Shown in pieces: positions 991-60,925 of a stretch of DNA of 64,000 nt (positions are counted from its first letter, which is position 1; each line of letters opens with the position of its first letter). Source of the stretch: Anadara kagoshimensis (lineage: Eukaryota > Mollusca > Bivalvia > Arcoida > Arcidae); assembly GCA_021292105.1 (NCBI GenBank), contig CM037860.1, positions 17,316,698 through 17,380,697 of the forward strand, read 5' to 3'. The position numbers and the translations under genes were made by a program. Under the pieces are notes generated by a model, which worked only from the letters and a program-made list of their open reading frames with translations, did no database searches and had not been told where the DNA came from.

Positions 991-1345
991 GTTTTATGCT
1001 TCAGTCAAGATTCTTCCACTTATATCGAGATGGTCAATTCTGGGGTAGCAAAGGAAGCCAAAGTGCCCAGAGAAAATCAGTGACCTTGGTGAACAGACAA
1101 ACTGAGAACAATGACCTTGGGCAGTTGACTGACTAAACTGAAAAACCAACATCTTTCAAAAAATAAATTAATAAACTGAAAACCATTGACCTTGGACAAG
1201 TTAATTGATCAACTGAAAATCAATGACCTTATACAAGTGAACTGATAAACTGAAAACCAATGATCTTGGTCAAGTAAACCAATAAACTGAAAACCAATGA
1301 TTTTCAACAAGTGAACTGATACTAGGAACTTCAGAAACTGAATTC
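991..1345 (-). mobile_element. SINE-A copy 1, with an internal tandem expansion
   Basis: On the - strand the 3' part of the SINE-A family is readable: a 'CTGGGCACT..' segment, 'ATTGACCATCTCGATATAAG', then 'GAATCTTGACT' and a tail like 'GCATAAAACAC'. SINE-A is the name used here for a tRNA-Leu-like SINE present at least a dozen times in the window. The SINE body is interrupted by a 37-bp tandem array (1081-1322). Body sequence appears to resume beyond it at about 1321 ('ACTAGGA', matching the family's 'TCCTAGTGTGAGAAA' on the opposite strand). Boundaries are approximate. Confidence 0.7.
1081..1322. repeat. 37-bp degenerate tandem array inside SINE-A copy 1
   Basis: About six imperfect units of the form 'GACCTTGGACAAGTTAATTG' followed by 'ATCAACTGAAAATCAAT'. 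Read on the - strand the unit is 'CAGTTNACTTGTCCAAGGTC' plus 'ATTGGTTTTC', which matches the internal SINE-A segment 'CAGTTGGCTTGCCAAAGGTC' plus 'TGTGGTTTTC' seen in undisturbed copies at 16, 28 and 35 kb. The array is therefore an amplification of the middle of the element. Confidence 0.65.
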
Positions 1346-2150
1346 TCGAATACACTCTGAAAAGCTAAAATCTTCAAAATTTATTTGTTACCTTAAAGTC
1401 AATTAGTTAAAAGGTTTTAAATTTTGATTGCATTTCTATTTCAAATTATTAACATCACTATATTGGATGTTAAAATATGGAATAGCAAATTAAATTTTTT
1501 TCTAAAACTGCAGTTCAGTTAATCTACCTAAGCGAGCATGTGATAATGAAAATTGTGTTTGGGGTGTGTATCATTTAAATGGACCTATTTCATAGATTAA
1601 CCATGCATTTATTGTAAAATTTAGGGGCAATGTATTTTGTTTTAGCCATTTTGCAGTAAAATATGTTTTAGTTTTAAATGCTTGAATGATAGTTTCAAAA
1701 GATTGTTTTAGGTCTTTTTGCCAAGACATTCTATCTTTTATAGGAAAAATTTGGGGTGGTTACCAGAAATTATCATTTGGCAAGATATTCTACAATGGAT
1801 TGGAAAATTTTGGGGTGTTGACTTATGTTTTGGCTGTTTTGGCAAATTATTCAGATTTGTAAATCAGTAATGCTTCATTTTTCCAGACAGAAGAAATATA
1901 TATTGGATTCTGATGATCTATATGTCTGATTGTGTACCATGCTATTATAAAAAAGAAGAGTTTTATTGTTGGTTATTCTATTATTAGTAATAAATCCATA
2001 TACAAGAATATTAAAAAGTATGTACAAATATATAAATAGATAAGAAAGAAGGTTAAGTAAAAATTTGATAGTCAGTTGCTTTTGGTAATAATTATTATGT
2101 AAACCAAATAACTTACGGTACCATCTCATGTTTGATGAGAATAAATTGAA
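1346..2150. other. No recognised feature
   Basis: AT-rich sequence. There is a weak internal similarity between 1720-1760 and 1775-1810 (a 'CAAGAYATTCTA' phrase followed by an 'AATTTTGGGGTG' phrase, about 60 bp apart), which may be an old tandem duplication. No exon or structured element is supported. Confidence 0.4.
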
Positions 2151-2154
2151 CGAA

Positions 2155-2476
2155 TGAGGTTTAATGTCCCAGTCAAAAATATTTCAATGACATCAAGATT
2201 TACCAGGTTTCGGTGAAATGGTAGAAATTTTTACCTTTGCAGTATGTTCAGGGCATTCACAGTGCAGGGATGGTTCTTCACTGTGCCATTACTACCATGA
2301 CATGGGGCGTCTGTTTTTAAGGTCTTTTCTAAAGGACCCAGCGACTTCAATTTCTAAATTCCAACCAACTGTGCTTTGCAAAAAGAAAAAGAGTCACTAC
2401 CTATTTTCAGATTTTGGTCAGACCTGACAAGGGTTCAAACCCTGACAGAGCAAACACTTTACCAACTGAGCTACAT
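2155..2476 (-). mobile_element. SINE-B copy 1 (tRNA-derived), near full length
   Basis: Read on the - strand, the element begins with a tRNA-like head carrying an A box ('TAGCTCAGTTGGTAAAG') and a B box-like 'GGTTTGAACCC' about 40 bp later. It runs through a body with 'GGTCTGACC', 'GTCATGGTAG' and 'GAACCATCCCTGCA', and ends in 'CTGGGACATTAAACC'. Copies with the same order of motifs lie at 16.3, 19.7, 48.6 and 53.9 kb. The small open frame at 2218-2427 on the + strand is contained in it and is not a gene. Confidence 0.75.
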
Positions 2477-3160
2477 GTATATGGTTGATTAATAAGAGAT
2501 TTCCATCAATTCAGTCACTATGAAATTTAAATAAAAAAAAGTGGATATATGCTATTATGTCTATCATAATTTTTGTGAAAAACACATCATTGATTTTGTG
2601 TTCTCAGAAAACATCTCTTGGTTTAATCTAATGTGCCATGTCTGACAATTGTTAGTATGATTATACGGTATTTTCAGAATACATTGTGGGTGATTCTGTT
2701 GTAAATTGAAAGGTAAAAGAGTTTAAAGCCATTAGCCACAGCAATAAGACATTTACTTTACACATAAAATTATACAAGTATCTTACCATGTAAATCTAAC
2801 TTGCTTAGAATTGTTACAGAGCAACAATATACTTCTGCATGAGTCTGTGGTATTGTTTCTATATATAAAGTGGTCAACCTATGAAAACCAAACCCTACAT
2901 AAACCAAAAACCTGTCTAAACTGTTCTACCAGTAAAATGTTAGAACATGTCATTTATATTGTGAAAAGTAAATTATGTCTCTTTGATACAGAGGGTGCTT
3001 GTTTAAGAAAGGTTATGGTTTTTTTTAATATTAAATTGGCAATGCTACAAGAAGACACATCTTTGAATAAATGTACAGGTTTATCTGAACAGACAGTAGA
3101 ACCTCAGATCAGTGGCCGAGTTGTACAAAGGATTGACTTACAGATCTCAATGCCTCCCAA
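2477..3160. other. No recognised gene; one uncharacterised open frame
   Basis: The + strand frame 2811-3167 (118 codons) is the longest here. It has no recognisable domain and its end overlaps the MITE at 3163. I see no splice or promoter support, so it is left unannotated. Confidence 0.4.
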
Positions 3161-3162
3161 GT

Positions 3163-3345: not shown

Positions 3346-3349
3346 TATG

Positions 3350-5711: not shown

Positions 5712-6332
5712 TCTAGGCTCGGGTGTTGGAACTTTTTCTACTTAAATATAAAATATAACAGAATACATCTGAATTTTATGCAGTGTCTGAAACTGGACTG
5801 GAATCCTATCCAGCTTGAGAAAACTCAAAATTTCAATGCTTTCTTTAAGATAAATGTGCAGAAAAATTTTCAAAAAAAAAAAAAAAAAAAAATTACAAAC
5901 CCAACTCGATTCTCCAGCTATCTCTTCTTTGTAGCAGACACAGGAATGTGCTTTTCTTGTCCATTATTTAAGCCCAAATAAAAGAAACAGGTTTTGGACC
6001 TTGGGACTGGCCTAAATATCAAATGTTTATTTCATATGGCAATAGTCAAGAGTCATCAGAAATATCAGTAAATGATAAACATGCATTGAAGCTATTGATT
6101 ATGAAATCAGTGATTTATTATTGCTGTCGCAAATGGAGAGTGTCCAATTTGCATGAAGTTCATTTTTTACATCATAAACACCAGACAAAATGTTAAATGG
6201 TGTCTAGTAGTGCTGCAGTATGCAAGTACTTTTTGGGGACATTTTACAATTAAGCTTTTTTTGCACGAAGTCATGCAATATGAATGCATTAAAAGTTTGT
6301 AAGTAAGCTGTATTATATAAGTAAACAATAGG

Positions 6333-7055
6333 CCATCAAGGTATAGGCAACAGATCCAGAAGGGGCTGACAATCTAGAAACACTACAAATGTTGTAGTTG
6401 AGCTCCAATGGGCCAAAAAGGTGTAGGCAGCAGGTCCAGAAGGGGCTGACAATCTAGAAACACTACAAATGTTGTAGTTGAGCTCCAATGGGCCAACAAG
6501 GTGTAGGCAGCAGGTCCAGAAGGGCCTGACAATCCAGAAACACTACAAATGTTGTAGTTGAGCTCCAATGGGCCAACAAGGTGTAGGATGCAGGTCCAGA
6601 AGGGGCTGACAATCCAGAAATACTACAAATGTTGTAGTTGAGCTCAAATGGGCCAACAAGGTGTAGGCAGCAGGTCCAGAAGGGGCTGACAATCCAGAAA
6701 CACTACAAATGTTGTAGTTGAGCTCCAATGGGCCAACAAGGTGTAGGATGCAGGTCCAGAACGGGCCTGACAATCCAGAAACACTACAAATGTTGTAGTT
6801 GAGCTCCAATGGGCCAACAAGGTGTAGGATGCAGGTCCAGAACGGGCCTGACAATCCAGAAACACTACAAATGTTGTAGTTGAGCTCCAATGGGCCAACA
6901 AGGTGTAGGATGCAGGTCCAGAACGGGCTGACAATCTAGAAATACTACAAATGCTGTAGTTGAGCTCCAATGGGCCAACAAGGTGTAGGCAGCAGGTCCA
7001 AAAGGGGCCTGACAATCCAGAAACACTACAAATGTTATAGTTGAGCTCCAGCAGT
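6333..7055. repeat. 80-bp minisatellite, about nine copies
   Basis: Units of 79-81 bp with the order 'GGCCAACAAGGTGTAGG', 'CAGCAGGTCCAGAAGGGGCT', 'GACAATCCAGAAACAC', 'TACAAATGTTGTAGTTGAGC'. Each unit holds a short palindrome CTACAA-ATG-TTGTAG. Unit variants are GCAGCAGG versus GATGCAGG and AGGGGCTGAC versus CGGGCCTGAC. Because 80 is not a multiple of 3, the reading frame changes with each repeat, producing the overlapping - strand frames at 6383-7096. These are by-products of the repeat, not genes. Confidence 0.9.
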
Positions 7056-7254: not shown

Positions 7255-7660
7255 AACTGCTCTTTTAGGTCATTGTGTAGACCATTTGTTTTATAATTGA
7301 CATTGGCATATTTCAGACATAAAACTTGCTAGTGACTGTTTAGTCAATAAATCCTCTTATGTTGTGAATTGACATAAAACAATTATGCAATATTAACCAA
7401 TTGCAAGTAACCAACTTTCAGGATCTGGGTTCAGTTTGATCCAAAGTTTTTGTTCTGAAATTTTTGTTGAAGAGATGTTGAATAGTTAATTTCAATTCAA
7501 ACTAAAGCACATTGTTTTAAAACATTGATTTAAAAATGACACTTTTGTTTTTTGATTGATGTTTGAAATTAATTCTGTACTTTTCACTGATTAAGTTATA
7601 GATATCAAGTTTAGTACAACTTAGACAAAATATTTACATTAATTGGTAATTTTGTATATA
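7255..7660. other. No recognised feature
   Basis: AT-rich sequence between the duplication and the 49-bp array; I see no exon, RNA or repeat family. Confidence 0.4.
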
Positions 7661-7664
7661 ATAG

Positions 7665-8600
7665 TAGGTGGAACACTGGGACAAAATATTTATGGCAATT
7701 TTGGATAGAATAGTAGGTGGAACACTGGGACAAAATATTTATGGCAATTTTGGATAGAATAGTAGGTGGAACAATGGGACAAAATATTTATGGTAATTTT
7801 GGATAGAATAGTAGGTGGAACACTGGGACAAAATATTTACATTAATTGGTAATACAATATTAGGTGGAACACTGGGACAAAATATTTATGGTAATTTTGT
7901 ATAGAATAGTAGGTGGAACACTGGGACAAAATATTTATGGTAATTTTGTATAGAATAGTAGGTGGAACACTGGGACAAAATATTTATGGTAATTTTGTAT
8001 AGAATAGTAGGTGGAACACTGGGACAAAATATTTATGGCAATTTTGGATAGAATAGTAGGTGGAACACTGGGACAAAATATTAATGGCAATTTTGGATAG
8101 AATAGTAGGTGGAACACTGGGACAAAATATTTATGGTAATTTTGGATAGAATAGTAGGTGGAACACTGGGACAAAATATTTACATTAATTGGTAATACAA
8201 TATTAGGTGGAACAATGGGACAAAATATTTATGGTAATTTTGGATAGATTAGTAGGTGGAACACTGGGACAAAATATTTACATTAATTGGTAATACAATA
8301 TTAGGTGGAACACTGGGACAAAATATTTATGGTAATTTTGTATAGAATAGTAGGTGGAACACTGGGACAAAATATTTATGGTAATTTTGTATAGAATAGT
8401 AGGTGGAACACTGGGGCAAAATATTTATGGTAATTTTGTATAGAATAGTAGGTGGAACACTGGGACAAAATATTTACATTAATTGGTAATACAATATTAG
8501 GTGGAACACTGGGACAAAATATTCATGGTAATTTTGGATAGAATAGTAGGTGGAACACTGGGACAAAATATTCATGATAATTATGCATAGAAACGATAGT
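7665..8600. repeat. 49-bp minisatellite abutting a SINE-A tail, about 19 copies
   Basis: The unit is 'AATAGTAGGTGGAACACTGG' then 'GACAAAATATTTATGGTAAT' then 'TTTGTATAG'. A variant block with 'TTTACATTAATTGGTAATAC' recurs several times (near 7840, 8180, 8280 and 8475), so the array has a higher-order arrangement. On the - strand the array starts exactly where SINE-A copy 2 ends. The SINE tail 'CACCATTCCACCTACTAT' shares 'TTCCACCTACTAT' with every unit, so the repeat unit contains the last bases of the SINE plus its 3' flank. Confidence 0.8.
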
Positions 8601-8605: not shown

Positions 8606-8815
8606 GAATGGTGTTCTATAATTTGTTCTTATCAAGGTGGTCAGTAATAGAATAATGGAGAAAACAGGAGTGCCCAGAAAAAACTCCTGACCTTTGGAAA
8701 GCAATCGGACACTTTTTGGCGCTAGGATCTGCTTAAAAGGAATCCTGACCAGATGGTGAGAGACATTTAGAGTCAGTATGCCTGTGCTTTTGACCACTTG
8801 GCCGCCAAGGCCCCT
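8606..8815 (-). mobile_element. SINE-A copy 2, full length
   Basis: On the - strand it begins 'GGGGCCTTGGCGGCCAAGTG' (A box TGGCCAAGTGG-like, here GCGGCCAAGTGG), continues 'TCAAAAGCAC', a degenerate B-box region, 'TGGGCACTCCTG', 'ACTGACCACCTTGATAAGAA', and ends at the 49-bp array. It is one of the better preserved heads of the family. The - strand frame 8474-8869 covers this SINE and part of the array and is not a gene. Confidence 0.75.
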
Positions 8816-11594: not shown

Positions 11595-12630
11595 GGCCTT
11601 GGTGGCCAAGTGGTCAAAGCACATGTTAATAAACCAAGGTGTGGCCAAGTGGTCAAAAGCACATGTTAATAAACCCAAGGGTGTGGCTTAGTGGTCAAAA
11701 GCACATGTTAATAAACCTAAGGGTGTGGCCAAGTGGTCAAAAGCACATGTTAATATACCCAAGGGTGTGGCCAAGTGGTCAAAAGCACATGTTAATAAAC
11801 CCAAGGGTGTGGCTTAGTGGTCAAAAGCACATGTTAATAAACCTAAGGGTGTGGCTTAGTGGTCAAAAGCACATGTTAATAAACCCAAGGGTGTGGCTTA
11901 GTGGTCAAAACCACATGTTAATAAACCCAAAGGGTGTGGCTTAGTGGTCAAAAGCACATGTAAATAAACCCAAAGTGTGTGGCTTAGTGGTCAAACGTGC
12001 ATGTTAATATATCCAAGGGTGTGGCTTAGTGGTCACAAGCACATGTTAATAAACCTAAGGGCGTGGCTTAGTGGTCAAACGTGCATGTTAATATACCCAA
12101 GGGTGTGGCTTAGTGGTCAAAAGCACATGTTAATAAACCCAAGGGTGTGGCTTAGTGGTCAAAAGTGCATGTTAATATACCCAAAGTGTGGCTTAGTGGT
12201 CAAAAGCACATGTTAATATACCCAAAGTGTGGCTTATTGTTCAAAAGCACATGTAAATAAACCCAAGGGTGTGGCTTAGTGGTCAAAACCACATGTTAAT
12301 AAACCTAAGGGTGTGGCTAAGTGGTCAAAAGCACATGTTAATAAACCCAAAGTGTGGCTTAGTGGTCAAAAGTGCATGTTAATATATCCAAAGTGTGGCT
12401 AAGTGGTCAAAAGCACATGTTAATAAACCCAAAGTGTGGCTTAGTGGTCAAAACCACATGTTAATAAACCCAAGGGTGTGGCTTAGTGGTCAAACGTGCA
12501 TGTTAATATACCCAAAGTGTGGCTTAGTGGTCAAAAGCACATGTTAATAAACCCAAAGTGTGTGGCTTAGTGGTCAAAAGCACATACTAATTTACCCAAG
12601 AGTGTGGCTTAGTGGTCAAAAAGTGCATGT
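11595..12630 (+). repeat. 42-bp minisatellite, an expanded SINE-A head, about 25 copies
   Basis: The first unit begins exactly like SINE-A ('GGCCTTGGTGGCCAAGTGG'). Later units run 'GTGTGGCTTAGTGGTCAAAA', 'GCACATGTTAATAAACCCAA', 'GG'. Unit length is 42 bp with 39-41-bp variants. Each unit keeps a Pol III A-box match TGGCNNAGTGG (NN is CA in the founding units and TT in most). The last unit runs straight into the rest of a SINE-A body, so the array is an internal expansion of the head of one SINE. The + frames at 11639-11944 and 11977-12216 are repeat translations. Confidence 0.85.
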
Positions 12631-12846
12631 TCAGACTGTGTTCATGGGTCACATTGCCTCTCACTGCCTAGATTTGTATTTGACTCATTAATGATCCTAG
12701 TCAGTAGTGTGAAAAAGTTTTAAAGTTTTTTGGCCAAAGTTTGGTGTTTTTTCCATACACTCTGGTTTCCTTCACAATCCCTAAGCTGATCACCTTAATA
12801 TAAATGAAAGAATCTTGACTAGAACTTAAAATGGCATTGCTCAACT
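12631..12846 (+). mobile_element. SINE-A copy 3, body and tail after the expanded head
   Basis: Continues from the array with 'TGCCTCTCACTGCCTAGATT', 'GATCCTAGTCAGTAGTGTGA', a 'TTGGCCAAAGTTTGGTG' segment, 'CTGGTTTCCTTCACAATCCC', 'CTGATCACCTTAATATAAAT' and 'GAAAGAATCTTGACTAG'. Order and spacing match SINE-A at 15.9 kb. With the array it forms one element of about 1.25 kb instead of about 0.2 kb. Confidence 0.8.
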
Positions 12847-15913: not shown

Positions 15914-16131
15914 AGGCCTCTGTGGTCAAGCGGTCTAAAGCACCAGCTAACATATCACAGTACCTCTCACTGTCTGTTTCCAAATCCCACTCACCAGGAT
16001 CCTAGTGTGAGAAAATTTGTCAGTTGGTTTACCAAAAGTCTGTGGTTGTCCAGTCACCTCCACCATCCCAGAACTGACCATCTCAATATGAGTCAAAGAA
16101 TCTTGACTGGGGCATGTAACAATATTATTTC
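15914..16131 (+). mobile_element. SINE-A copy 4, the clearest full-length copy
   Basis: Head 'GGCCTCTGTGGTCAAGCGGT' with 'CTAAAGCACC'. A B-box-like 'GTTTCCAAATCCCACTC' follows at about 15976. Body: 'GGATCCTAGTGTGAGAAAAT', 'TGTCAGTTGGTTTACC', 'CACCTCCACCATCCCAGAAC', 'TGACCATCTCAATATGAGT'. Tail: 'CAAAGAATCTTGACTGGGGC'. The head resembles tRNA-Leu (GGCCNAGTGGTCTAA..), including the long spacing between A and B boxes expected of a variable-arm tRNA. This copy is the reference for the other SINE-A calls. Confidence 0.85.
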
Positions 16132-16339
16132 TAGACTTTATGGTAAAGTACTTATTTGACCCATTTAGAGTCAAAGATGAAGCTTTGTATTTAATAAAGT
16201 CTGGTTTTGATTCCACCTTTGTCATATTGCCAATGCATTATTATAATACAGTATTCAAGTGTTTTGGTATGAAACAAACAGATGTGTATCAATTGTCTGT
16301 TAAATGATAAGCTTCTTTGCTTTGGCCAAAGAATAATTA

Positions 16340-16560
16340 ATTGATTGATTGGGGTTTTTACATTCTAGTCAAGAATATGTCACTTATATCAAGACATCAC
16401 CAGCAATGATGAAATGGTGAAATGGCAGAAATTTGTACCTTTGCAGTGTGCTCAGGGAAATGTGCAGGGAGGGTTCTTTAACATGCCATGGCCACCTTGA
16501 CGTTTTTAAAGTCTCTTCAGAAGGACTGACTTTCATTCCCAATGCCAAATTTTCATGAGA
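16340..16560 (-). mobile_element. SINE-B copy 3, head missing
   Basis: Read on the + strand: 'TGATTGATTGGGGTTTTTAC', 'CAAGACATCACCAGC', 'CCTTTGCAGTGTGCTCAGGG', 'ATGTGCAGGGAGGGTTC', 'CATGCCATGGCCACCTTGAC', 'GAAGGACTGACTTTCATTC'. This is the reverse of the SINE-B body. The tRNA-like head is absent, so it is 5' truncated. Confidence 0.7.
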
Positions 16561-19138: not shown

Positions 19139-19345
19139 GGGCCTCCTCAGGTTGAGAAGTCAAAAGTGCTCACTTACCAATCACAGCTGCTCTAACCTCC
19201 TAGGTTCTGGTGCTATCAGAGCTGATCTAGTGAGAGAAGTTTTTTTTCTGTTTTTTTCTGGGCACTCCAGATTCCTCCACCATCCCATAACTGACTGCCT
19301 CAATATAAGTGAAATAATTTTGACTGGAGTACTCTACAACTTATT
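19139..19345 (+). mobile_element. SINE-A copy 5
   Basis: The head is diverged ('GGCCTCCTCAGGTTGAGAAG', 'TCAAAAGTGCTCACTTACC'). The body and 3' end are clear: 'CTGGGCACTCCAGATTCCTC', 'CACCATCCCATAACTGACTG', 'CCTCAATATAAGTGAAATAA', 'TTTTGACTGGAGTAC'. A 25-bp tandem array begins about 45 bp after its tail. The frame at 19104-19415 is this SINE. Confidence 0.7.
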
Positions 19346-19384: not shown

Positions 19385-19655
19385 CATTGTGTGCTACTTT
19401 TTGTGTTACGTTTGAATTAATTGTCATGTGCTACTTTTGATTAAATTGTCATGTGCTACTTTTGAATTAGTTGTCATGTGCTACTTTTGAATTAGTTGTC
19501 ATGTGCTACTTTTGAATTAATTGTCATGTGCTACTTTTGATTAAATTGTCATGTGCTACTTTTGAATTAGTTGTCATGTGCTACTTTTGAATTAGTTGTC
19601 ATGTGCTACTTTTGAATTATATTATTTCCTAAAAATTCAAAAGTAGCACATGACA
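19385..19655. repeat. 25-bp tandem array ending in an inverted copy
   Basis: About nine units of 'TGTCATGTGCTACTTTTGAA' plus 'TTAGT', with TTAAA and TTAAT variants in a repeating order. At 19636-19655 the reverse complement 'TTCAAAAGTAGCACATGACA' occurs once, so the end of the array can fold into a hairpin with the last forward unit. It lies between SINE-A copy 5 and SINE-B copy 4. Confidence 0.85.
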
Positions 19656-19656: not shown

Positions 19657-19965
19657 TACTATGGTAGCTCAGTTGGTTGAATGCTTGCTCCATATGTGAG
19701 AGGTCAGAGTTCAAACTTAGCTGGGTCTGACCAAGACTTGCCTTTTTGCCAAGCAATCATCACTTGGAAATAAGATTCATCACAGGGTCATTCTGAAGAA
19801 ACCATAAAAACTGATGCTTAGTGTCATGGTAGGTTTGGCTTGCTAAAGGTCTCTCCCTGCACATTGTCCAGAGTGCATTTCAATAATAAAATTTCTGCCA
19901 CTTCACCCATAGCTGGTGGCATCTCAATATAAGTGATAAATTTTTGGGCATAAAACCCCATGTAA
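19657..19965 (+). mobile_element. SINE-B copy 4, full length
   Basis: tRNA-like head with A box 'TGGTAGCTCAGTTGGTTGAA' and, about 35 bp on, B-box-like 'GAGTTCAAACTTAGC'. Body 'GGGTCTGACCAAGACTTGCC', 'CAGGGTCATTCTGAAGAAAC', 'GTGTCATGGTAGG', 'TCTCTCCCTGCACATTGTCC', 'TTTCTGCCACTTCACCCATA', 'GCTGGTGGCATCTCAATATA'. Tail 'GGGCATAAAACCCC'. It is the clearest copy of the family. Its 3' end 'ATCTCAATATAAGTGA' resembles SINE-A's 3' region, so both families may be mobilised by the same LINE. Confidence 0.8.
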
Positions 19966-19969
19966 TAAC

Positions 19970-27238: not shown

Positions 27239-27601
27239 ACAGGAATTGTTTCAGTATACTTTTATCTACAACACATGGTAATTAACAGATTAATCAGGTG
27301 ATGATTTACCTAGTTTGTTACAATCTGGATGTAATGATTCAGACTGATTGACATGAAATCTGTTATATAAGAAATCCCATATGTTAAATAAGAAACTCCC
27401 ATATCTGATTTAAGCTGAATCAGCAAAAATAAAAAATCAATTATAGTTTGTTTAAAATTAAAAATTAGCTGAATAAGCATAATATTATAGTTGGTCTTAG
27501 TAAATATAACTCACACATCTGATTGTTTTACTTGTGTTTTATGCCCATTTACCAGAAATGAATTTCTTTAATTAATACATTTCTTTAACTTGCTTACAGA
27601 T

Positions 27602-27765
27602 TACAGTGCCTCACACTGTCTATTTTCAAATCCCACTCTGACAGATCCTTGTGCGAGAAAGTTTGTTAGTTGGCTTGTAAATTCACTCGTTTTCTCTGAA
27701 TACTTTGTTTTCCTCCACAATTCCAGAATTGACCCCCTCAATATAAGTGAAAGAACCTTAAGTCT
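27602..27765 (+). mobile_element. SINE-A copy 6, 5' truncated
   Basis: 'GTGCCTCACACTGTCTATTT', 'TCAAATCCCACTCTGACAG', 'ATCCTTGTGCGAGAAAG', 'TTGTTAGTTGGCTTG', 'TCCTCCACAATTCCAGAATT', 'GACCCCCTCAATATAAGTGA', 'AAGAACCTTAAGTC'. It lacks the A-box head. Overlapping frames on both strands (27590-27909) are this SINE. Confidence 0.7.
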
Positions 27766-28181: not shown

Positions 28182-28440
28182 GAGTCTTGGTGGCCAAGTG
28201 GTCTAAAGAACTTATGGATCACATAGGTTTGAAAAATAATTGGGCAGATATCCTGGTTTAAAAAACTTTGTCAATTTGCCAAAAGATTGGTGGTTTTTCT
28301 TCAGGAACTGTAATTTCCTCCACCATATCAAAACTGACTGTCTCAATATAAATGAAAGATTCTTGACTTGTGCATAAAACACCATTACTCAACTCCACCA
28401 TCCCAGAACTAACCATCTTGATTGGGGCATAACACGCCAC
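28182..28440 (+). mobile_element. SINE-A copy 7 with a partially duplicated tail
   Basis: Head 'GTCTTGGTGGCCAAGTGGTC' (A box TGGCCAAGTGG). Body with 'TTGTCAATTTGCCAAAAGAT', 'TAATTTCCTCCACCATATC', 'GACTGTCTCAATATAAATGA'. Tail 'CTTGACTTGTGCATAAAAC' ending 'ACCATTACTCAAC'. A second 3' segment follows at once (28394-28440): 'TCCACCATCCCAGAACTAAC', 'CATCTTGATTGGGGCATAAC'. The tail region is thus present twice, possibly an early stage of tail amplification. Confidence 0.75.
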
Positions 28441-30525: not shown

Positions 30526-30835
30526 AATGAGCTGTTAATTAGGTTTTCTATCTCACATACTACGTCTTTCTTTTATTTGCTAGAAGTCAATTATACCGAA
30601 GTAATCTGAAAAGCTTCTTATTTTTATTTTATTGCTTAGAACAAATTCTGCTGGATTTGCTTGGTTAGACACTTATATGATTGAACAACTAGATGAGTCA
30701 TGTATGACAGTGGGTCTGAACTGGCAATGTTTTAAACTGTTTATAAATATGAACATACATTCTTTGAGAACTGCAATCTACTGTTCTGGAAGTAGTATTG
30801 GCAAATCCAGCATCAAATGGACATAAGCAATGAAA

Positions 30836-35614: not shown

Positions 35615-35822
35615 CATCCCTTACAAATGGTCAAGTGGTCTAAAGCACTCACTTTCTAGGTTCAAATATCACTTGTAACAGATCTTAAGTGTGAGAAAGG
35701 TGTCAGTTTGCTTGCCAAAGGTTGTGGTTTTCTCTAGGTACTCCAGTTTCTTCCACCATCCTAGAACTGACCACCTCATTACAAGTAAAAACATCTTGAC
35801 TGGGATGTTAAACTTTATTACC
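35615..35822 (+). mobile_element. SINE-A copy 8
   Basis: Head 'AATGGTCAAGTGGTCTAAAG', B box 'TAGGTTCAAATATCACTTG', body 'GATCTTAAGTGTGAGAAAGG', 'TGTCAGTTTGCTTGCCAAAG', 'TACTCCAGTTTCTTCCACC', 'CTAGAACTGACCACCTC', tail 'AACATCTTGACTGGGATG'. Full length and well preserved, including a recognisable B box. Confidence 0.85.
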
Positions 35823-44647: not shown

Positions 44648-44868
44648 AGAAGCCTTCACGGCCAAATAGTCTAAAATGTGCTTAAAACCATAGAGCTTCT
44701 CACAACCTATAAGTTCCAATCTGAATCGGGCAGGTTGTAATGTGTGAACAAGTTTGTCAGTTCACTTGTCAAAGACCTGAGTTTTTTGGACACTCAGATT
44801 TTTTTCGCCATCCCAGAAATTACCATCTCTATACAATTGAAAGAATCTTGATAGGAAAGTAAATCCCC
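44648..44868 (+). mobile_element. SINE-A copy 9, diverged
   Basis: 'AGCCTTCACGGCCAAATAGT' (head), 'CTAAAATGTGC', 'CAGGTTGTAATGTGTGAACA', 'AGTTTGTCAGTTCACTTGTC', 'GGACACTCAG', 'CCATCCCAGAAATTACCATC', 'TCTATACAATTGAAAGAATC', 'TTGATAGG'. Full length but with many substitutions. Confidence 0.7.
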
Positions 44869-44869
44869 A

Positions 44870-46985
44870 TTTAATCTCAATCCAATAATTAAACTAAATT
44901 CACAAAATTTATTGAACTCTATAACTAAGTAAGGAACAAGTTCTTCAAGGTGTCAGTTTATGAAGGTTACACTGTAGCTGTACCAGAAATTCAAATATTC
45001 TCCTTCTCCTGTGAGTGCCTCCCTCAAATTTGAGTATATTCGCACTGTTTATATAACCTTGGTAGATTTAAGTTAATTATGAACTCGCATGTAAAAGTCG
45101 AAGCTTTAATTGACGTATGGAGTTGATAAATACTTTACTTACAGCATGTTGTAAGTGCAATATACTTCCTACATTTCATTAAGGATTTGAACCGTGATTT
45201 CACATTTCTTCATAATTTAATAAAAATCACACTGTAATATGCATTGATATCTTAATACCACGGAACATAACTCGTGGAAATTCCGATCATCCATGTGTTT
45301 TGTACATATCAGAGTTAGAAACATAATTTGTCTGAAGTACATTTTGTGGTTCATTTAGAAAATGCATATCAGCATGAAACTTTAATCTGATGTCGGCTTA
45401 AATACAGACGAGAATGTAAAAGAATAGAAAAACTTACCAGTGCATATATACACAAATGTATATACAGATGCCAGATCTTAAAAAACATTCTAGATTTTAT
45501 ATCTATTGACAAATATGCTGATAAAGCATTATTATTTTTTAGAAATCTTGTCAACTTTAATTTTAATATATCAGGAATTAATTTTTTAAACTTGGTGCAT
45601 ATTTCTTCATTTAATTATTTGATAATTTTAAACCGTTTATTCTGTTAGCCTGAAATTTTTATAATTCCTAGGTTATAAGATGAAAGCCACTGTATTTCTT
45701 TTGACATATTCAATGTTTGCAACATTAATTAGTTTATTATATATATACTCCATAAACCCAGTGCTTTAGATCTCTTGAGGACCAAGACCCTAAGTTCTGA
45801 ACTTTATAGATCTGTAGGCCACCGAGACCTTTATGTTTTGAGCTTTAGATATCTCATCAACCAAGAGTTTTAAGTTTTGAGCTATAGATCAGACCCATTT
45901 TGAGTTAGAATTTTCAACAAGACTGTAAATGTATTAATGTTAGTGTTCACAAATTTTAGAGTCTGGTAAATTATAATTTGGGTAAATTCACATAGACTTG
46001 AATTAGCGTAACTCTCATGGATGATCATTGCACTACAGTCTTATTTGGTTTGGTGGTGGATTTAAATTTGTGCTACTGTATCATAATGGAAATCACTAAA
46101 ATTATGGTAATACATTTAAACATTTAAAAATAATTTGTAAAAAATATTTCAATCGCGAACATCTAGTATAGGATGCATTTCAAATACATTTACAGTCTTG
46201 TTCAATAATGCAAAAATTAAAGCAAGATACTTTGAAAACACACAGGAAATACAGACAGGTAGAAGTTTAAAAAAAATGCTTCGGTCAGCAGGATAACATA
46301 ATAAGGTTAATACAAGAGGGTCAGAAAGTCAGTGTTTTGTATTTTGTCCAAAACCTTCTTCACTTGAATTGATGATGGCCATTGTATCCTGCTATCTATT
46401 GTGGAATATTTTTACTGCTTTAACAGATGAGAATGCACAATTATAATATAATTACTATGACCTGGGAATGGTATAGAGCTAGCTACTGATGGACATCACA
46501 CAAGACACTGACCATCACCACGGATCAGCTAGATGGTGTGTGTGTGAGGTGGAAAGTGCTGGAGAGATTAGTACACCTCTATACAAATCAGTTTCCCCTG
46601 ATTTATCTGTTTGACTCTTGTCAATTTCTGGTCTATAAGGATATAAACATGTCAGCAATCTAAGTACAGGAATATATTACTGGTAATTGATTTCATACAG
46701 GGGGTTATAAAAGTTAACAGTTATGTAATCACTTTACTGTCAGGGATAACTAACCATTAAGAAGATATCCCCTTGTATCATCCCTTTTCCTGTGGTTTAT
46801 GACCTGTTGCCAGATTTAAGAATATTTAAACAGGTCATAAACCCTTAATTTTGTTTAATTTGGTTTTAAATACATAAAAATGTTTTCATAAGTATTTTTA
46901 TTAGATCAATCCAGTTGACTTTTGACTCTTTAGTGTTTAATCTCTGATATAGAGATAAGGTCATGTACAGCTATATTGCATGCCA
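44870..46985. other. No gene; small old tandem repeat at 45.77-45.90 kb
   Basis: AT-rich. At 45765-45895 three units of about 55 bp share 'GCTTTAGATCTCTTGAGGAC', 'CAAGACCCTAAGTTCTGAAC' with many changes. A segment at 45055-45320 has several CpGs (CTCGCATG, AGTCGAAG, GACGTATG, CACGGAAC, CTCGTGG, TCCGATC) and might be regulatory. No exon is supported. Confidence 0.4.
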
Positions 46986-48602: not shown

Positions 48603-48912
48603 GATTGATTGATTGAATGGGGTTTAAGTCCCAGTCATGAATATTTCACTTATATTGAGATGTCACCAGCTATAGGAAAAGTTGCAGATTTGAACTTTGC
48701 AGTGCACTCGGGGCAATGTGCAGGGAGAGTTCTTTAATATGTCATGCCTACCATGACTCAGGTCATCAGTTTTTATAAGGTCTCTTTCAAAGGACCATGT
48801 GACTTTAATTTTTTTTTTTAAATGCAAAGTCACTTTTTTTCAAGTCTTGGTCAGATCTGGCTGGGATTTCAAACCATGACCCCCACATATGCAGCAAGCA
48901 CTCTACTAACAA
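48603..48912 (-). mobile_element. SINE-B copy 5, full length
   Basis: Read on +: 'GGGGTTTAAGTCCCAGTCAT', 'GAGATGTCACCAGCTATAGG', 'GTTGCAGATTTGAACTTTGC', 'GCACTCGGGGCAATGTGCAG', 'GTCATGCCTACCATGACTC', 'TCTTGGTCAGATCTGGCTGG', 'GATTTCAAACCATGACCCCC', 'GCACTCTACTAAC'. The tRNA-like head is at the right end but its A box is damaged. Confidence 0.75.
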
Positions 48913-49145
48913 TCATTTTAAGACCATGTTACAACACATGTCCATCCAATAGCAGGTGAAGCCTAAATATTATTAACTTAGACATTCCAATGCTTTCTCA
49001 CATCAATAAAACCCAGAGTGCTAAAATGAGTGAGTGGAATATTGTTTCATATAAATGATCATGATTTTTGTTGAAATAGAGTTTTAAACCCAGGAAAGAT
49101 TTTTTGGCTGATTATTTATATGGATACTGTCAGTTGTGGATTGGT

Positions 49146-49262
49146 TGAGGAAACCAGAGTACCCAGAAAAATATACTGCATGACCTTTAGCAAGTAAACT
49201 TTCTCACACTAGGATATGCCCTAGTAGCATTTGAACCTAGGTGATGAGAAGCACTAATTTTA
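49146..49262 (-). mobile_element. SINE-A copy 10, 3' truncated
   Basis: On +: 'GAGGAAACCAGAGTACCCAG', 'GACCTTTAGCAAGTAAACTT', 'TCTCACACTAGGATATGCCC', 'ATTTGAACCTAGGTGATGAG', 'AAGCACTAA'. These are the reverse of SINE-A middle and B-box region. The 3' tail and A box are missing. Confidence 0.65.
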
Positions 49263-54132: not shown

Positions 54133-54464
54133 TCATCATTCCACTGTATTTATTACTTGCGGTGACATTACTACAGTTTTATTGTTTAACATGACACACT
54201 AAGTATTTGATACCAGTATTCTAATGATTCTTCATATTGAATTTCTTGTTGTTTATCCCTATTTGTTTCTTATTTCATTTACCAGTAGTTATGACAGTTT
54301 GAACCAGGTAATTTTCCATGTCGACATCTTATTTAGGTTTCCATTATGTTAATAAGTTCTGATTTGTAAATCAAGAAGTCGGTCTTGGAAATTTACACAG
54401 GAAAAATAATTTCTGCCTTCAATATAGCTAAACTAATTTAGTTAAAAAAAATACAGGACTAGAA

Positions 54465-57400
54465 TATCAGGGCCCTTGATGGCCAAGTGGTCTAAAGAGT
54501 AGACATAGTGAAACACAAATACAGGACTAGAATATCAGGGCCCTTGATGGCCAAGTGGTCTAAAGAGCAGGCATAGTGAAACACAAATACAGGACTAGAA
54601 TACGAGAACCCTTGATGGCCAAGTGGTCTAAAGAGTAGACATAGTTAAACACAAATACAGGACTAGAATATGAGACCCTTGATGGCCAAGTGGTCTAAAG
54701 AGCAAATAGTTAAACACAAATACAGGACTAGAATATGAGACCCTTGATGGCCAAGTGGTCTAAAGAGCAGACTAGTGAAACACAAATACAGGACTAGAAT
54801 ATGAGGACCCTTGATGACCAAGTGGTCTAAAGAGCAACTTAGTGAACACAAATACAGGACTAGAATATGAGGACCCTTGATGGCCAAGTGGTCTAAAGAG
54901 TAGACTAGTGAAACACAAATACAGGACTAGAATATAGGACCTTGATGGCCAAGTGGTCTAAAGAGCAAACTTAGTGAAACACAAATACAGACTAGAATAT
55001 GAGTACCCTTGATGGCCAGGTGGTCTAAAGAGCAACTTGTGAAACACAAATACAGGACTAGAATATGAGGACCCTTGATGGCCAAGTGGTCCAAAGAGCA
55101 ACTAGTGAAACACAAATACAGGACTAGAATATGAGGACCCTTGATGGCAAAGTGGTCTAAAGAGTAGACATAGTGAAACACAAATACAGGACTAGAATAT
55201 GAGGACCCTTGATGGCCAAGTGGTCTAAAGAGCAGACTTAGTGAAACACAAATACAGGACTAGAATATCAGGGCCCTTGATGGCCAAGTGGTCTAAAGAG
55301 CAGACATAGTGAAACACAAATACAGGACTAGAATATGAGGACCCTTGATGGCCATGTGGTCTAAAGAGCAGACATAGTGAAACACAAATACAGGGCTAGA
55401 ATATCAGGGCCCTTGATGGCCAAGTGGTCTAAAGAGTAGACTAGTGAAACGCAAATACAGACTAGAATATGAGGACCCTTGATGCCAGTGGTCTAAAGAG
55501 TAGACTAGGAAACACAAATACAGGACAAATATGAGGACCCTTGATGGCCAAGTGGTATTAAGAGCAGACTTAGTGAACACAAATACAGGACTAGAATAGA
55601 GACCCTTGATGGCCAAGTGGTCTAAAGAGCAGACATAGTGAAACACAAATACAGGACTAGAATATGAGGACCCTTGATGGCCAAGTGGTCTAAAGAGCAT
55701 AGTGAAACACAAATACAAGGCTAGAATACAGGGCCCTTGATGGCCAAGTGGTCTAAAGAGCAGACATAGTGAAACACAAATACAGGACTAGAATATGAGG
55801 ACCCTTGAGGGCCAAGTGGTCTAAAGAGCAGACTTAGTGGAACACAAATACAGGACTAGAATATGAGGACCCTTGATGGCCAAGTGGTCTAAAGAGCAGA
55901 CATAGTGAAACACAAATACAGGACTAGAATACTAGGACCCTTGATGGCCAAGTGGTCTAAAGAGCAGACTTAGTGAAACACAATACAGACTAGAATATGA
56001 GGACCCTTGATGGCCAAGTGGTCTAAAGAGCAAACTTGGTGAAACACAAATACAGGACTAGAATATCAGGGCCCTTGATGGCCAAGTGGTCTAAAGAGTA
56101 GACATAGTGAAACACAAATACAGGACTAGAATACGAGAACCCTTGATGGCCAAGTGGTCTAAAGAGTAGACTTAGTGAAACACAAATACAGGACTAGAAT
56201 ATGAGGACCCTTGATGGCCAAGTGGTCTAAAGAGCAGACATAGTGAAACACAAATACAGGACTAGAATATGAGGACCCTTGATGGCCAAGTGGTCTAAAG
56301 AGTAGACATAGTGAAACACAAATACAGGACTAGAATATCAGGGCCCTTGATGGCCAAGTGGTCTAAAGAGCAGACATAGTGAAACACAATACAGGACTAG
56401 AATATGAGGACCATTGATGGCCAAGTGGTCTAAAGAGCAAATTAGTGAAACACAAATACAGAACTAGAATATGAGAACCCTTGATGGCCAAGTGGTCTAA
56501 AGAGCAGACATAGTGAAACACAAATACAGGACTAGAATATCAGGGCCCTTGATGGCCAAGTGGTCTAAAGAGCAGACATAGTGAAACACAAATACAGGAC
56601 TAGAATATCAGGGCCCTTGATGGCCAAGTGGTCTAAAGAGCAGACATAGTGAAACACAAATACAGGACTAGAATACGAGTACCCTTGATGGCCAAGTGGT
56701 CTAAAGAGCAGACATAGTGAAACACAAATACAGGACTAGAATACGAGTACCCTTGATGGCCAAGTGGTCTAAAGAGCAGACATAGTGAAACACAAATACA
56801 GGACTAGAATACTAGGACCCTTGATGGCCAAGTGGTCTAAAGAGCAAACTTAGTGAAACACAAATACAGGACTAGAATATGAGTACCCTTGATGGCCAAG
56901 TGGTCTAAAGAGCAGACATAGTGAAACACAAATACAGGACTAGAATATCAGGGCCCTTGATGGCCAAGTGGTCTAAAGAGCAGACATAGTGAAACACAAA
57001 TACAGGACTAGAATACGAGTACCCTTGATGACCAAGTGGTCTAAAGAGCAGACATAGTGAAACACAAATACAGGACTAGAATACTAGGACCCTTGATGGC
57101 CAAGTGGTCTAAAGAGCAAACTTAGTGAAACACAAATACAGGACTAGAATATGAGGACCCTTGATGGCCAAGTGGTCTAAAGAGCAGACATAGTGAAACA
57201 CAAATACAGGACTAGAATACGAGTACCCTTGATGGCCAAGTGGTCTAAAGAGCAGACATAGTGAAACACATACAGGACTAGAATAGGACCCTTGATGGCC
57301 AAGTGGTCTAAAGAGCAAACTTAGTGAAACACAAATACAGGACTAGAATATGAGGACCCTTGATGGCCAAGTGGTCTAAAGAGCAGACATAGTGAACACA

Positions 57401-59015
57401 AATACAGGACTAGAATACTAGGACCCTTGATGGCCAAGTGGCCTAAAGAGCAGACATAGTGAAACACAAATACAGGACTAGAATACTAGGACCCTTGATG
57501 GCCAAGTGGTCTAAAGAGCAAACTTAGTGAAACACAAATACAGGACTAGAATATGAGGACCCTTGATGGCCAAGTGGTCTAAAGAGCAGACATAGTGAAA
57601 CACAAATACAGGACTAGAATACTAGGACCCTTGATGGCCAAGTGGCCTAAAGAGCAGACATAGTGAAACACAAATACAGGACTAGAATATCAGGGCCCTT
57701 GATGGCCAAGTGGTCTAAAGAGCAGACATAGTGAAACACAAATACAGGACTAGAATACTAGGACCCTTGATGGCCAAGTGGCCTAAAGAGCAGACATAGT
57801 GAAACACAAATACAGGACTAGAATATCAGGGCCCTTGATGGCCAAGTGGTCTAAAGAGCAGACATAGTGAAACACAAATACAGGACTAGAATACTAGGAC
57901 CCTTGATGGCCAAGTGGTCTAAAGAGCAAACTTAGTGAAACACAAATACAGGACTAGAATATGAGGACCCTTGATGGCCAAGTGGTCTATAGAGCAGACA
58001 TAGAAACACAAATACAGGACTAGAATACAAGAACCCTTGATGGCCAAGTGGTCTAAAGAGTAGACAAAGCGAAACACAAATACGGGACTAGAATATGAGG
58101 ACCATTGATGGCCAAGTGGTCTAAAGTTCAGACATAGTGAAACACAAATACAGGACTAGAATATGAGGACCCTTGATGGCCAAGTGGTCTAAAGAACAAA
58201 CTTGGTGAAACACAAATACAGGACTAGAATATGAGGACCCTTGATGGCCAAGTGGTCTAAAGAGCAAACTTAGTGAAACACAAATACAGAATTAGAATAT
58301 GAGTACCCTTGATGGCCAAGTGGTCTAAAGAGCAGGCATAGTGAAACACAAATACAGAACTAGAATATGAGGACCCTTGATGGCCAAGTGGTCTAAAGAG
58401 CAGACATAGTGAAACACAAATACAGGACTAGAATATGAGGACCCTTGATGGCCAAGTGGTCTAAAGAGCAGACATAGTGAAACACAAATACAGGACTAGA
58501 ATAGGAGAACCCTTGATGGCCAAGTGGTCTAAAGAGCAAACTTAGTGAAACACAAATACAGAACTAGAATATGAGGACCCTTGATGGCCAAGTGGTCTAA
58601 AGAGTAGACATAGTGAAACACAAATACAGGACTAGAATATGAGGACCCTTGATGGCCAAGTGGTCTATAGAGCAGACATAGAAACACAAATACAGGACTA
58701 GAATACAAGAACCCTTGATGGCCAAGTGGTCTAAAGAGTAGACAAAGCGAAACACAAATACGGGACTAGAATATGAGGACCATTGATGGCCAAGTGGTCT
58801 AAAGTTCAGACATAGTGAAACACAAATACAGGACTAGAATATGAGGACCCTTGATGGCCAAGTGGTCTAAAGAGCAAACTTGGTGAAACACAAATACAGG
58901 ACTAGAATATGAGGACCCTTGATGGCCAAGTGGTCTAAAGAGCAAACTTAGTGAAACACAAATACAGGACTAGAATAGGAGAACCCTTGATGGCCAAGTG
59001 GTCTAAAGAGCAGAC
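54465..59015 (+). repeat. 68-bp satellite of SINE-A head plus flank, about 67 copies
   Basis: Unit: 'GACATAGTGAAACACAAATA', 'CAGGACTAGAATATGAGGAC', 'CCTTGATGGCCAAGTGGTCT', 'AAAGAGCA' (68 bp, with small deletions in the first third of the array). About 30 bp is the SINE-A head (CCTTGATGGCCAAGTGGTCT AAAGAGCA), the rest appears to be 5' flank. Every unit carries the Pol III A-box match TGGCCAAGTGG with very few exceptions, and no B box. The final unit continues into a SINE-A body at 59015. Variants form shared haplotypes (see findings). The - strand frames within it are repeat translations. It lies wholly inside the kinase intron in the + orientation. Confidence 0.93.
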
Positions 59016-59275
59016 ATATAGTTCATCTCTAGATGCCTCACTTTGTCAAAGCCTCTTACTGGAAAGCTCTTAGGCTGGGTAGATCAAAGTTTGATTGAGA
59101 CATTTAATACCATTACAGAGGTACCCCACTTCTCCATTGTACAATATAGGAAATCCCTATCAGTGGGTTTTTTCTGGATACTCTAGTTAATTCCATCATT
59201 CAGAATCTGACTACCTTTACCATGTACATTTATATTAAAGAATCTGGTCCTGATTTAGGCGTTAAATACCATTAC
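59016..59275 (+). mobile_element. SINE-A copy 11, body attached to the 68-bp satellite
   Basis: After the last A-box unit: 'TAGTTCATCTCTAGATGCCT' and a poorly conserved middle, then 'CCTATCAGTGGGTTTTTTCT', 'GGATACTCTAGTTAATTCC', 'ATCATTCAGAATCTGACTAC', 'ATTTATATTAAAGAATCTGG', 'GCGTTAAATACCATTAC'. The order matches SINE-A 3' sequence, so the satellite grew from the head of this element. Confidence 0.65.
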
Positions 59276-59279
59276 TTCA

Positions 59280-59920
59280 CCTCTCCATTCTGCAATATAT
59301 ATTTTTTCATCAACTTATCAATTCAAGATAACTATGTAATGAATGTGTGCCATTTTCAGTCTTTAAACCAATTTTTAGCTACAGAGTCAATACAAATCTA
59401 GAATAATGGAAAACCATTTCTGACAGCCACATATTTTCTACCAATTAAACACACTGTAATCTTATACAGATTTAATACAATGGATAGAAATTGATGGGGG
59501 AAGAGTTCATGTGTCTTCCCTTATCATAACATAACTAATATTCAAGTGATTTAAGGCAGAATATGATTTCTGTAGAAATGGTCGCAAAATCAATATCAGA
59601 ATTACAATATAAATACTTTGGTTACATTTTCACGATTTTTGTCCAGATCATATCATGCAACTGTTTATTACAGGAACGTATTGTCTTATAAATTATATAG
59701 AATCGTCTCGTTGATTATATATTGATAAAGTAATAGCTTTTATATATACAGTATTTTTGTTATTCAGATAATTATTAATTGAAAGAAGATACCGTCTGGG
59801 ATCTATGGTAGCTTTTTATTCCTTTTATGTATTTTTCCTGTTTATTAGTATTATTGGTAATTATTGTGATTTTTGAAGAAATAATCAATTCATTTTAGGT
59901 TTTCTGTACAATGAGCACAT
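59280..59920. other. Intron sequence, no recognised feature
   Basis: AT-rich; no exon or repeat family seen. Confidence 0.4.
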
Positions 59921-59934
59921 GACAAAACCTGACA

Positions 59935-60735
59935 TCAGAATGGTGTAATGGTGTTTTGTGCCAAGGTCTTCTGTACTTTGAGCACATGTCTAAAACCCTT
60001 CTACTTGAAAGTGGAATAATGATGTTTTGTGCCAAGGTCTTCTGTACTTTGAGCACATGTCTAAAACCCTTCTACTTGAGAGTGATGTAATGGTGTTTTG
60101 TGCCAAGGTCTTCTGTACTTTGAGCACATGTCTAAAACCCTTCTACTTGAGAGTCGTGTAATGGTGTTTTGTGCCAAGATCTTCTGTACTTTGAGCACAT
60201 GTCTAAAACCCTTCTACTTGAGAGTGATGTAATGGTGTTTTGTGCCAAGGTCTTCTGTACTTTGAGCACATGTCAAAAACCTTCTACTTGAGAGTGGTGT
60301 AATGGTATTTTGTGCCAAGGTCTTCTGTACTTTGAGCACATGTCTAAAACCCTTGTACTTGAGAGTGGATTAATGGTGTTTTGTGCCAAGGTCTTCTGTA
60401 CTTTGAGCACATGTCTAAAACCCTTCTACTTGAGAGTGGTGTAATGGTGTTTTGTGCCAAGATCTTCTGTACTTTGAGCACATGTCTAAAACCTTCTACT
60501 TGAGAGTGGTGTAATGGTGTTTTGTGCCAAGGTCTTCTGTACTTTGAGCACATGTCTAAAACCTTGTACTTGAGAGTGATGTAATGGTGTTTTGTGCCAA
60601 GGTCTTCTGTACTTTGAGCACATGTCTAAAACCCTTCTACTTGAGAGTGGATTAATGGTGTTTTGTGCCAAGGTTTACTGTACTTTGAGCACATGTCTAA
60701 AATCCTTCTACTTGAGAGTGGAGTAATGGTGTTTT
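59935..60735. repeat. 71-bp minisatellite on a SINE-A tail, about 11 copies
   Basis: Unit: 'GTGATGTAATGGTGTTTTGT', 'GCCAAGGTCTTCTGTACTTT', 'GAGCACATGTCTAAAACCCT', 'TCTACTTGAGA' (71 bp). On the - strand it contains 'CACAAAACACCATTACTCCA', which is the 3' terminus of SINE-A, followed by flank. The right-most unit passes directly into SINE-A copy 12, so the unit is the SINE's last ~25 bases plus ~45 bases of 3' flank. Units are 90% or more alike by eye. Frames on the - strand (60344-60874) are repeat-derived. Confidence 0.88.
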
Positions 60736-60925
60736 GTCCCCAAGTAGAGAATATTTCATTTATATCAAGGCAGTCAACTCTAAATTGGTGGAAAAACCAC
60801 AATGCCAGGAGAAAAAACACCATTTGCAAGTGCACCAAAAAAATTTTCTCAAACCAAGATCTTTGAGAAGACATGTGGTTGACAAGTCAATGCTTTAGAT
60901 CACTAGGTCATTGGGGCCCTCAAAC
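60722..60925 (-). mobile_element. SINE-A copy 12, full length
   Basis: On -: head 'GAGGGCCCCAATGACCTAGT' and 'GATCTAAAGCATTGAC', body 'GTTTGAGAAAATTTTTTTGG', 'TTCTCCTGGCATTGTGG', 'TTTTTCCACCAATTTAGAG', 'TTGACTGCCTTGATATAAAT', tail 'GGGGACAAAACACCATTACT'. Tail abuts the 71-bp array. Confidence 0.75.

Follow-up and report, generated by a model that had tools for sequence, protein, structure and literature searches.

Satellites derived from SINEs (sSats) are already known from squamate reptiles (PMC10702118), and in human 7,276 of 31,472 minisatellites (23%) are element-derived, with Alu and others as sources (PMC3389668). The squamate report describes several features that we find again in arrays associated with a dispersed element, SINE-A: the units stem from different SINE parts with several independent origins, a longer end unit runs into the remaining SINE, some units hold extra sequence of unknown origin, and units are more alike than SINE copies (PMC10702118). 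Some squamate sSat variants occur at thousands of loci (PMC10702118), while the SINE-A units listed here, from a host that is probably no reptile and may be a mollusc, recur only on one chromosome. The work on human minisatellites indicates that, as in the SINE-A arrays, any region of an element can be repeated, and that most element-derived minisatellites are without flanking direct repeats (PMC3389668). Alu-derived arrays there average 2.3-2.4 units (PMC3389668), whereas the arrays in our window, the whole stretch of 64,000 nucleotides that was analysed, have 6 to 68.

We show here that tandem arrays with differing units have arisen from a single SINE family at no fewer than 27 separate loci, in a genome in which about 15% of random sequence is array. 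Many of the examined arrays keep an adjoining single-copy SINE as a dated reference, and arrays dated in this way make it possible to study how minisatellites begin, a step that is poorly understood. The arrays are probably local minisatellites, born by duplication in or beside an inserted SINE-A and then grown and homogenised. A SINE-A copy would insert, a short stretch, either inside the SINE or across its edge into neighbouring DNA, would duplicate head-to-tail, and the pair would then expand and be homogenised, so that an array came to lie within or next to a SINE that is ordinary in other respects. End-joining or replication slippage may account for the first duplication, and slippage or unequal exchange for growth and homogenisation; targets would be supplied by abundant SINE-A in a genome that makes arrays in most places sampled.

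SINE-A is a dispersed element with a tRNA-like head. Its 215 bp consensus, built from 31 copies, contains GGCCGAGTGG and GGTTCGAATCC, putative Pol III A and B boxes. By its tRNA-like head and high dispersed copy number the element classes as a putative tRNA-derived SINE; ARAGORN detected no tRNA in the window. The consensus also contains GGTTTTCTCTGGGCACTCCGGTTTCCTCCACC, which may resemble the Meta core domain of the MetaSINE superfamily, reportedly described by Nishihara et al. in 2016. SINE-A is like this superfamily in its tRNA-like head and in a central motif that may correspond to the Meta core; it is unlike it in that the SINE-A tail is common to a second element, SINE-B. Merged SINE-A copies number 26 in 210 kb and 14 in the window, and the exact head motif occurs 3,090 times genome-wide, copies within arrays counted (reversed control, 0). 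Extrapolation from the sample gives about 110,000-140,000 copies or fragments in the genome. Profile matches place undisturbed copies at 16, 28 and 35 kb, as claimed by the sequence-only reading of this DNA; bases 35660-35820 of the last served as the genome query. Further copies lie at 19151-19331, 27589-27761, 44660-44871 and 49074-49255, and fragments near 3.1-3.5 kb.

All five arrays named in that reading, with units of 37, 49, 42, 68 and 71 bp, were found by TRF where it had put them (Table 1). It had also held that every array contains part of SINE-A. This is clear for the 37-, 42- and 68-bp units from unit shuffle and profile and probable by contiguity for the 71-bp unit, while for the 49-bp unit the sequence points to adjacency only. 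Against SINE-A, the unit of array 1 (period 37 or 74 bp by TRF) gave a shuffle p of 0.007 and 4 profile matches (best E 0.015), and that of array 4 a p of 0.013 and 68 matches (best E 0.0003); array 3 stood above background by profile (23 matches, best E 0.005), with a shuffle p of 0.093. These profile matches agree with the segments proposed, namely middle at 1.1 kb, head at 11.6-12.6 kb and head plus 5' flank at 54.5-59.0 kb. The tail plus 3' flank proposed at 59.9-60.7 kb is backed by contiguity, but not by the unit of array 5 alone, which did not match SINE-A above background (shuffle p 0.16, zero profile matches). We assign array 5 to SINE-A because the adjoining copy runs 15 bp into the array and the unit holds the tail bases AAAACACCATTA. 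A SINE-A tail plus flank had also been seen in the unit at 7.7-8.6 kb, and here the claim found no support: the unit of array 2 is not recognisably SINE-A (shuffle p 0.60, no profile match), which speaks against array 2 as SINE-derived, and the array begins about 15 bp beyond a SINE-A 3' end. Reversed arrays, as a control, yielded one profile match of -0.3 bits. In arrays 1, 3, 4 and 5 the terminal unit extends into the remaining SINE.

Table 1. Tandem arrays and SINE-A copies in the window
Feature	Positions	Strand	Evidence
SINE-A copy (3' half, positions 94-213), broken by array 1	985..1107	-	83.6 bits, profile
Array 1: 37-bp unit, 6 copies, SINE-A middle (~positions 90-126)	1089..1321	-	TRF, unit shuffle, profile
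Array 2: 49-bp unit, 19.4 copies, adjoins SINE-A 3' end	7644..8592	-	TRF
SINE-A copy next to array 2, positions 1-213	8607..8803	-	124.8 bits, profile
Array 3: 42-bp unit, 24.4 copies, SINE-A 5' end and head	11602..12621	+	TRF, profile
SINE-A copy into which array 3 runs	12606..12838	+	103.9 bits, profile
Undisturbed SINE-A copy	15924..16127	+	157.4 bits, profile
Undisturbed SINE-A copy	28192..28388	+	126.1 bits, profile
Undisturbed SINE-A copy	35629..35821	+	162.8 bits, profile
Array 4: 68-bp unit, 67.9 copies, ~21 bp 5' flank (boundary within unit placed by eye) and SINE-A head	54449..59018	+	TRF, profile
SINE-A copy into which array 4 runs, positions 1-107 and 119-215	58992..59275	+	18.7 and 30.6 bits
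Array 5: 71-bp unit, 11.9 copies, probable ~20 bp SINE-A tail and ~50 bp 3' flank	59897..60737	-	TRF, contiguity
SINE-A copy running into array 5	60723..60909	-	73.6 bits, profile

The whole-genome test for SINE-A arrays was run as exact-pattern searches. After merging of same-unit neighbours it gave at least 17 head loci (from 100 of 251 matches and 100 of 109 matches), array 3 being one of them, and 10 middle loci (from all 57 matches). Spacings range from 30 to 61, and 7 of the 27 loci hold a single exact pair only. With at least 27 independent loci, 7 of them single pairs, the repeated independent birth of arrays from different SINE-A segments, suggested for this one stretch, is real and genome-wide. 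Profile matches identify SINE-A sequence in the units of L030, L034 and L036, the matches at L031, L033 and L035 are weak or at the edge, and the L032 unit is linked to SINE-A by the common head motif. At L030, L032, L034 and L036 the array runs on into the rest of the SINE; at L033 the head repeat is present but the adjoining SINE body was not recognised. Among the matches listed, units vary from locus to locus, with recurrence only between places on one chromosome. Some units recur on a single chromosome at distances of 0.1-2.3 Mb. For the two pairs compared, spread of the unit was rejected, as their flanks are 96-100% identical (L034/L038, 100% over 668 bp; L039/L040, 96%) and mark them as duplicates of a segment or of the assembly. 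The same-unit neighbours at C2:65.0, C4:0.5-0.7, C5:46-49 and C8:48 Mb were merged on unit and position.

Arrays 1 and 3 and those at L034 and L036 have units wholly inside the SINE, as would fit arrays that the reverse transcriptase made during insertion by slipping on its template. However, the units of arrays 4 and 5 and of L031, L032 and L035 carry non-SINE flank, defined as not SINE-A, and slippage is excluded for these arrays because a SINE transcript would not contain flank. Units also mostly resemble one another far more closely than SINE copies resemble the consensus: SINE-A outside arrays has 0.74-0.85 identity to the consensus, whereas units are 91-97% alike except in array 1 (mean pairwise identity 0.906 in array 3, 0.943 in array 4 and 0.939 in array 5; TRF matches of 96% at L034 and 97% at L036). 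Moreover, array length was altered after a locus was duplicated, with 486 bp at L039 and 350 bp at L040. Slippage at insertion is hence extremely unlikely, and flank in units, uniform units and the length change at a duplicated locus argue together for DNA-level duplication after insertion. The units of array 1 have a mean pairwise identity of just 0.788, so that array 1 and its SINE could be of almost the same age. We consider it quite improbable that SINEs inserted into or beside pre-existing arrays. Array 2, which touches a SINE-A end with a unit lacking recognised SINE sequence, would suit this scenario, but it fails for arrays 1, 3 and 4, whose units hold SINE-A that runs on into the adjoining copy, and probably also for array 5.

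The sequence-only reading linked array birth to the element or to its insertion. Such a mechanism is not supported, in view of flank in units, uniform units, array starts in the SINE-A interior as well as at its edges, and arbitrary 13-mers and two other repeats that behave alike. SINE-A might still have an inherent tendency to duplicate in tandem, for instance if its Pol III promoter, or its RNA or DNA when folded, stalls forks, which seems rather unlikely to us. It is equally doubtful that a sequence or transcription-linked property of SINE-A starts tandem duplications several-fold to tens-fold above similarly diverged dispersed repeats; if true, SINE-A would be a natural reporter for minisatellite beginnings. 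The comparison with other repeats speaks for such a property. SINE-B is similarly diverged (mean identity to consensus 0.806, n=19; SINE-A 0.800, n=20) and similarly dense (24 copies in 210 kb), and two of its motifs, with 15,849 and 3,986 exact occurrences, gave 2 and 4 tandem loci (0.013% and 0.11%), single exact pairs only at 2 of 2 and 1 of 4. A third, unrelated repeat gave 16 tandem loci, 9 of them single pairs and same-unit neighbours on C3, C8, C15 and C18 merged on unit and position; this is about 0.04% per motif for some 39,000 copies, extrapolated from 7 in 200 kb (15,700-80,400). Per intact motif, SINE-A thus lies several-fold to tens-fold above the two other families tested, although counting by exact motif overstates the rate for families in which single copies have lost it. 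Against this, the excess over arbitrary genomic 13-mers is small. These were in exact tandem at 0.416% (bootstrap 0.248-0.626) for spacing 28-58 and 0.345% (0.201-0.520) for spacing 40-61 with seeds per array limited, and at 0.536% and 0.454% without the limit. The SINE-A head reached at least 14 of ~2,750 at spacing 40-61, or 0.51% (0.28-0.85), and the middle 14 places of ~1,250 at spacing 28-58, or 1.12% (0.61-1.88), which collapse to 10 loci and 0.80% (0.38-1.47); the denominators 2,750 and 1,250, and 3,700 for the second SINE-B motif, derive from counts of 3,090, 1,383 and 3,986 by subtracting chance matches and copies inside arrays, in part by estimate. The enrichment anticipated earlier is therefore found over the two repeat families, but over 13-mers it is just ~1.5-2.7 times, and less against the 0.454-0.536% background; the uncollapsed middle is 2.7-fold above the point estimate, with intervals that barely overlap.

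Overlap within the window also favours a prone SINE-A, as SINE-A sequence is present in 4 of the 14 arrays and a fifth lies against a copy. By the automatic rule 3 of 14 overlap against 0.72 expected; with array 4, whose flanking match is below cut-off, the Poisson p is 0.006, and with adjacency 5 stand against 0.82 expected (p 0.002), p values that refer to a window chosen because of the pattern itself. In the sample (random regions and L009), however, 0 of 29 arrays touch SINE-A, with 0.85 expected, and window and sample pooled give 4 against 1.57 (p 0.07). This proximity test used 29 of 30 arrays, leaving out the all-array region L027; L009, picked near the window, entered the unit-shuffle and proximity tests and was kept out of the 13-mer rates and array coverage. 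The SINE-A excess over SINE-B and the third repeat, the uncollapsed middle rate, the window enrichment, array 1 and L033 speak against an origin as local minisatellites. SINE-B and the third repeat likewise form arrays with differing units, and since ordinary DNA and other repeats also form arrays, the clustering mostly resembles repeats arising in the usual way and not a peculiarity of the element. After arrays with <2.5 copies, <100 bp or a period <15 were dropped, 20 random 10-kb regions held 29 arrays, which hit 16 of the regions and cover 15.3% of the 200 kb, or 11% without the one all-array region.

SINE-A, the 215-bp repeat family studied here, combines a Leu/Ser-type tRNA-like head and a central motif with a tail that is common to a second element, SINE-B. 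The consensus was built from 31 array-free copies, and the profile was seeded from seven copies or parts picked by eye. The family accounts for 14 merged copies or fragments in the window (3.7% of bases) and for 26 merged copies in 21 fetched regions (1.8%). We show here that different SINE-A segments have repeatedly given rise to tandem arrays. A 13-base head motif recurs in tandem at spacings of 28-58 at 251 places (reversed control, 0), and a middle motif at 109 places (control, 2). Collapsing same-unit neighbours leaves, among the matches listed, at least 17 head loci, array 3 included, and at least 10 middle loci, with spacings of 30-61; 7 of these 27 loci show just one exact pair. For head spacings of 40-61 the listing is complete (57 places, 14 loci). 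Thus, the independent array births that the sequence-only reading saw in one locus occur genome-wide. Seven of the head and middle loci were fetched with their flanks (L030-L036). The array interrupts the SINE cleanly in L034 and L036, the unit includes 5' flank in L031, L032 and L035, the SINE resumes beyond the array, with an interruption, in L030, and of SINE-A the head alone is recognised in L033.

All five window arrays that had been read from the sequence (units of 37, 49, 42, 68 and 71 bp) were recovered by TRF. That every one of them holds SINE-A stood for arrays 1, 3 and 4 by their units and probably for array 5, with 0 profile matches in its unit, by contiguity, because a SINE copy runs into it. 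It did not stand for array 2, in whose unit neither unit shuffle nor profile search recognised SINE-A and which has a SINE-A end nearby. Unit shuffle gave p <0.05 for 2/14 window arrays (1 and 4 only) and for 0/30 arrays of the fetched regions.

Tandem arrays and related repeats (positions in the window unless a fetched region, L, is named)
Feature	Location	Unit or length	Description	Unit shuffle p
Array 1	1089-1321	37 bp	SINE-A positions ~90-126	0.007
Array 2	7644-8592	49 bp	begins ~15 bp beyond SINE-A 3' end	0.60
Array 3	11602-12621	42 bp	5' end and head of SINE-A; 23 profile matches	0.093
Array 4	54449-59018	68 bp	~21 bp 5' flank and SINE-A head	0.013
Array 5	59897-60737	71 bp	~20 bp SINE-A tail and ~50 bp 3' flank	0.16
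Further sizeable arrays	6326-7050, 30818-31740, 33536-33979, 38117-39511	80, 23/50, 37, 59 bp	four arrays, no SINE-A in units	>=0.67
25-bp array	19402-19619	25 bp	71 bp from SINE-A copy 19151-19331; no SINE-A in unit	0.60
SINE-B	16332-16548, 2139-2363, 48604-48811, 19764-19977	~210 bp	SINE-like family; SINE-A tail in opposite orientation
Third repeat	L011, L012, L017, L021, L025, L026		motif TCCGGAAGGGTAA; tandem arrays or pairs at 16 collapsed loci, 9 of them single pairs
145-bp family	L009 6992-9089, L018 802-1939, L025 5499-6902	145 bp	near-identical unit in 3/21 fetched regions

The incorporation of non-SINE flank into units, the uniformity of units (identity 0.91-0.97, array 1 0.79, vs 0.74-0.85 for SINE outside arrays) and the different array lengths (486 vs 350 bp) in 96% identical duplicates (L039/L040) point to a DNA-level process that acted once SINE-A had inserted, duplicating sequence in tandem and altering array length; we infer a lesion that would have initiated the duplication. 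L039 and L040 lie 1.2 Mb apart on the same chromosome, L034 and L038, 100% identical over 668 bp, 2.3 Mb apart on theirs; both pairs are recent segmental duplications or assembly duplicates. Squamate SINE-derived satellites have the same anatomy (PMC10702118). Human minisatellites derived from mobile elements have also been described (PMC3389668), and a review names salamanders and Xenopus as further hosts of SINE-derived satellites and reports an oyster satellite originating from a pearl-type DNA element (PMC9659126). For molluscs, titles and abstract openings, with partial coverage, yielded no report of SINE-derived arrays.

Does SINE-A itself promote duplication? The window (contig C4, bases 17,316,698-17,380,697; G+C ~33%) belongs to an assembly of 1.115 Gb in 36 contigs, whose size and repeat style would fit a bivalve mollusc. 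Of 200 kb drawn from it at random, arrays make up 15.3% of bases (10.9% once one all-array region is set aside), and 16/20 of the regions drawn contain them. Given this background and an extrapolated >100,000 SINE-A copies, many SINE-A arrays are expected. The head at spacing 40-61 is tandem at 14 loci in ~2,750 copies (0.51%, 0.28-0.85), arbitrary 13-mers at 0.345% (0.20-0.52); the middle, among the matches listed, is tandem at 14 places in ~1,250 copies (1.12%, 0.61-1.88) or 10 collapsed loci (0.80%, 0.38-1.47), its comparison 13-mers at 0.416% (0.25-0.63). This puts the SINE-A rate at ~1.5- to 2.7-fold that of background, and the intervals overlap. SINE-B also seeds arrays (L037, 31 bp x 16; L021 4830-5796, with a 40-bp unit that overlaps one end of a SINE-B copy). 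Rates per intact motif are lower for SINE-B (2/15,849 for one motif, 4 loci/~3,700 for another) and for the third repeat, another dispersed family (16 loci/roughly 39,000, copy number extrapolated), denominators counted from exact motifs being biased because single copies lose the motif and arrays retain it. By total copies SINE-A leads SINE-B by 27 to 6 loci, ~4.5-fold, with the bias reversed because more SINE-B copies remain exact. Mean identity to consensus (0.800 and 0.806) and density are alike, so mean age or copy number does not explain the gap. It is on this gap that a SINE-A property starting tandem duplications more often would rest, which we regard as unlikely.

Locally, 3/14 window arrays touch SINE-A by automatic overlap vs 0.72 expected, and 4/14 (Poisson p 0.006) with array 4, which the rule missed because its flanking SINE-A match fell under the cut-off; these figures come from a window selected on account of its array/SINE-A pattern. 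In the sampled regions 0/29 arrays touch SINE-A vs 0.85 expected, and pooling gives 4 vs 1.57 (p 0.07).

Among other arrays, a 57-bp tandem array spans the whole of one random 10-kb region (L027 1-10000), and the 145-bp family is a candidate dispersed satellite or may belong to a mobile element. An exon-like AMPK/SIK/MARK-type protein kinase stretch lies at window 61652-61786 (+) (best PDB match SIK3, E 4e-10), and the introns or upstream region of such a kinase gene may harbour arrays 4 and 5.
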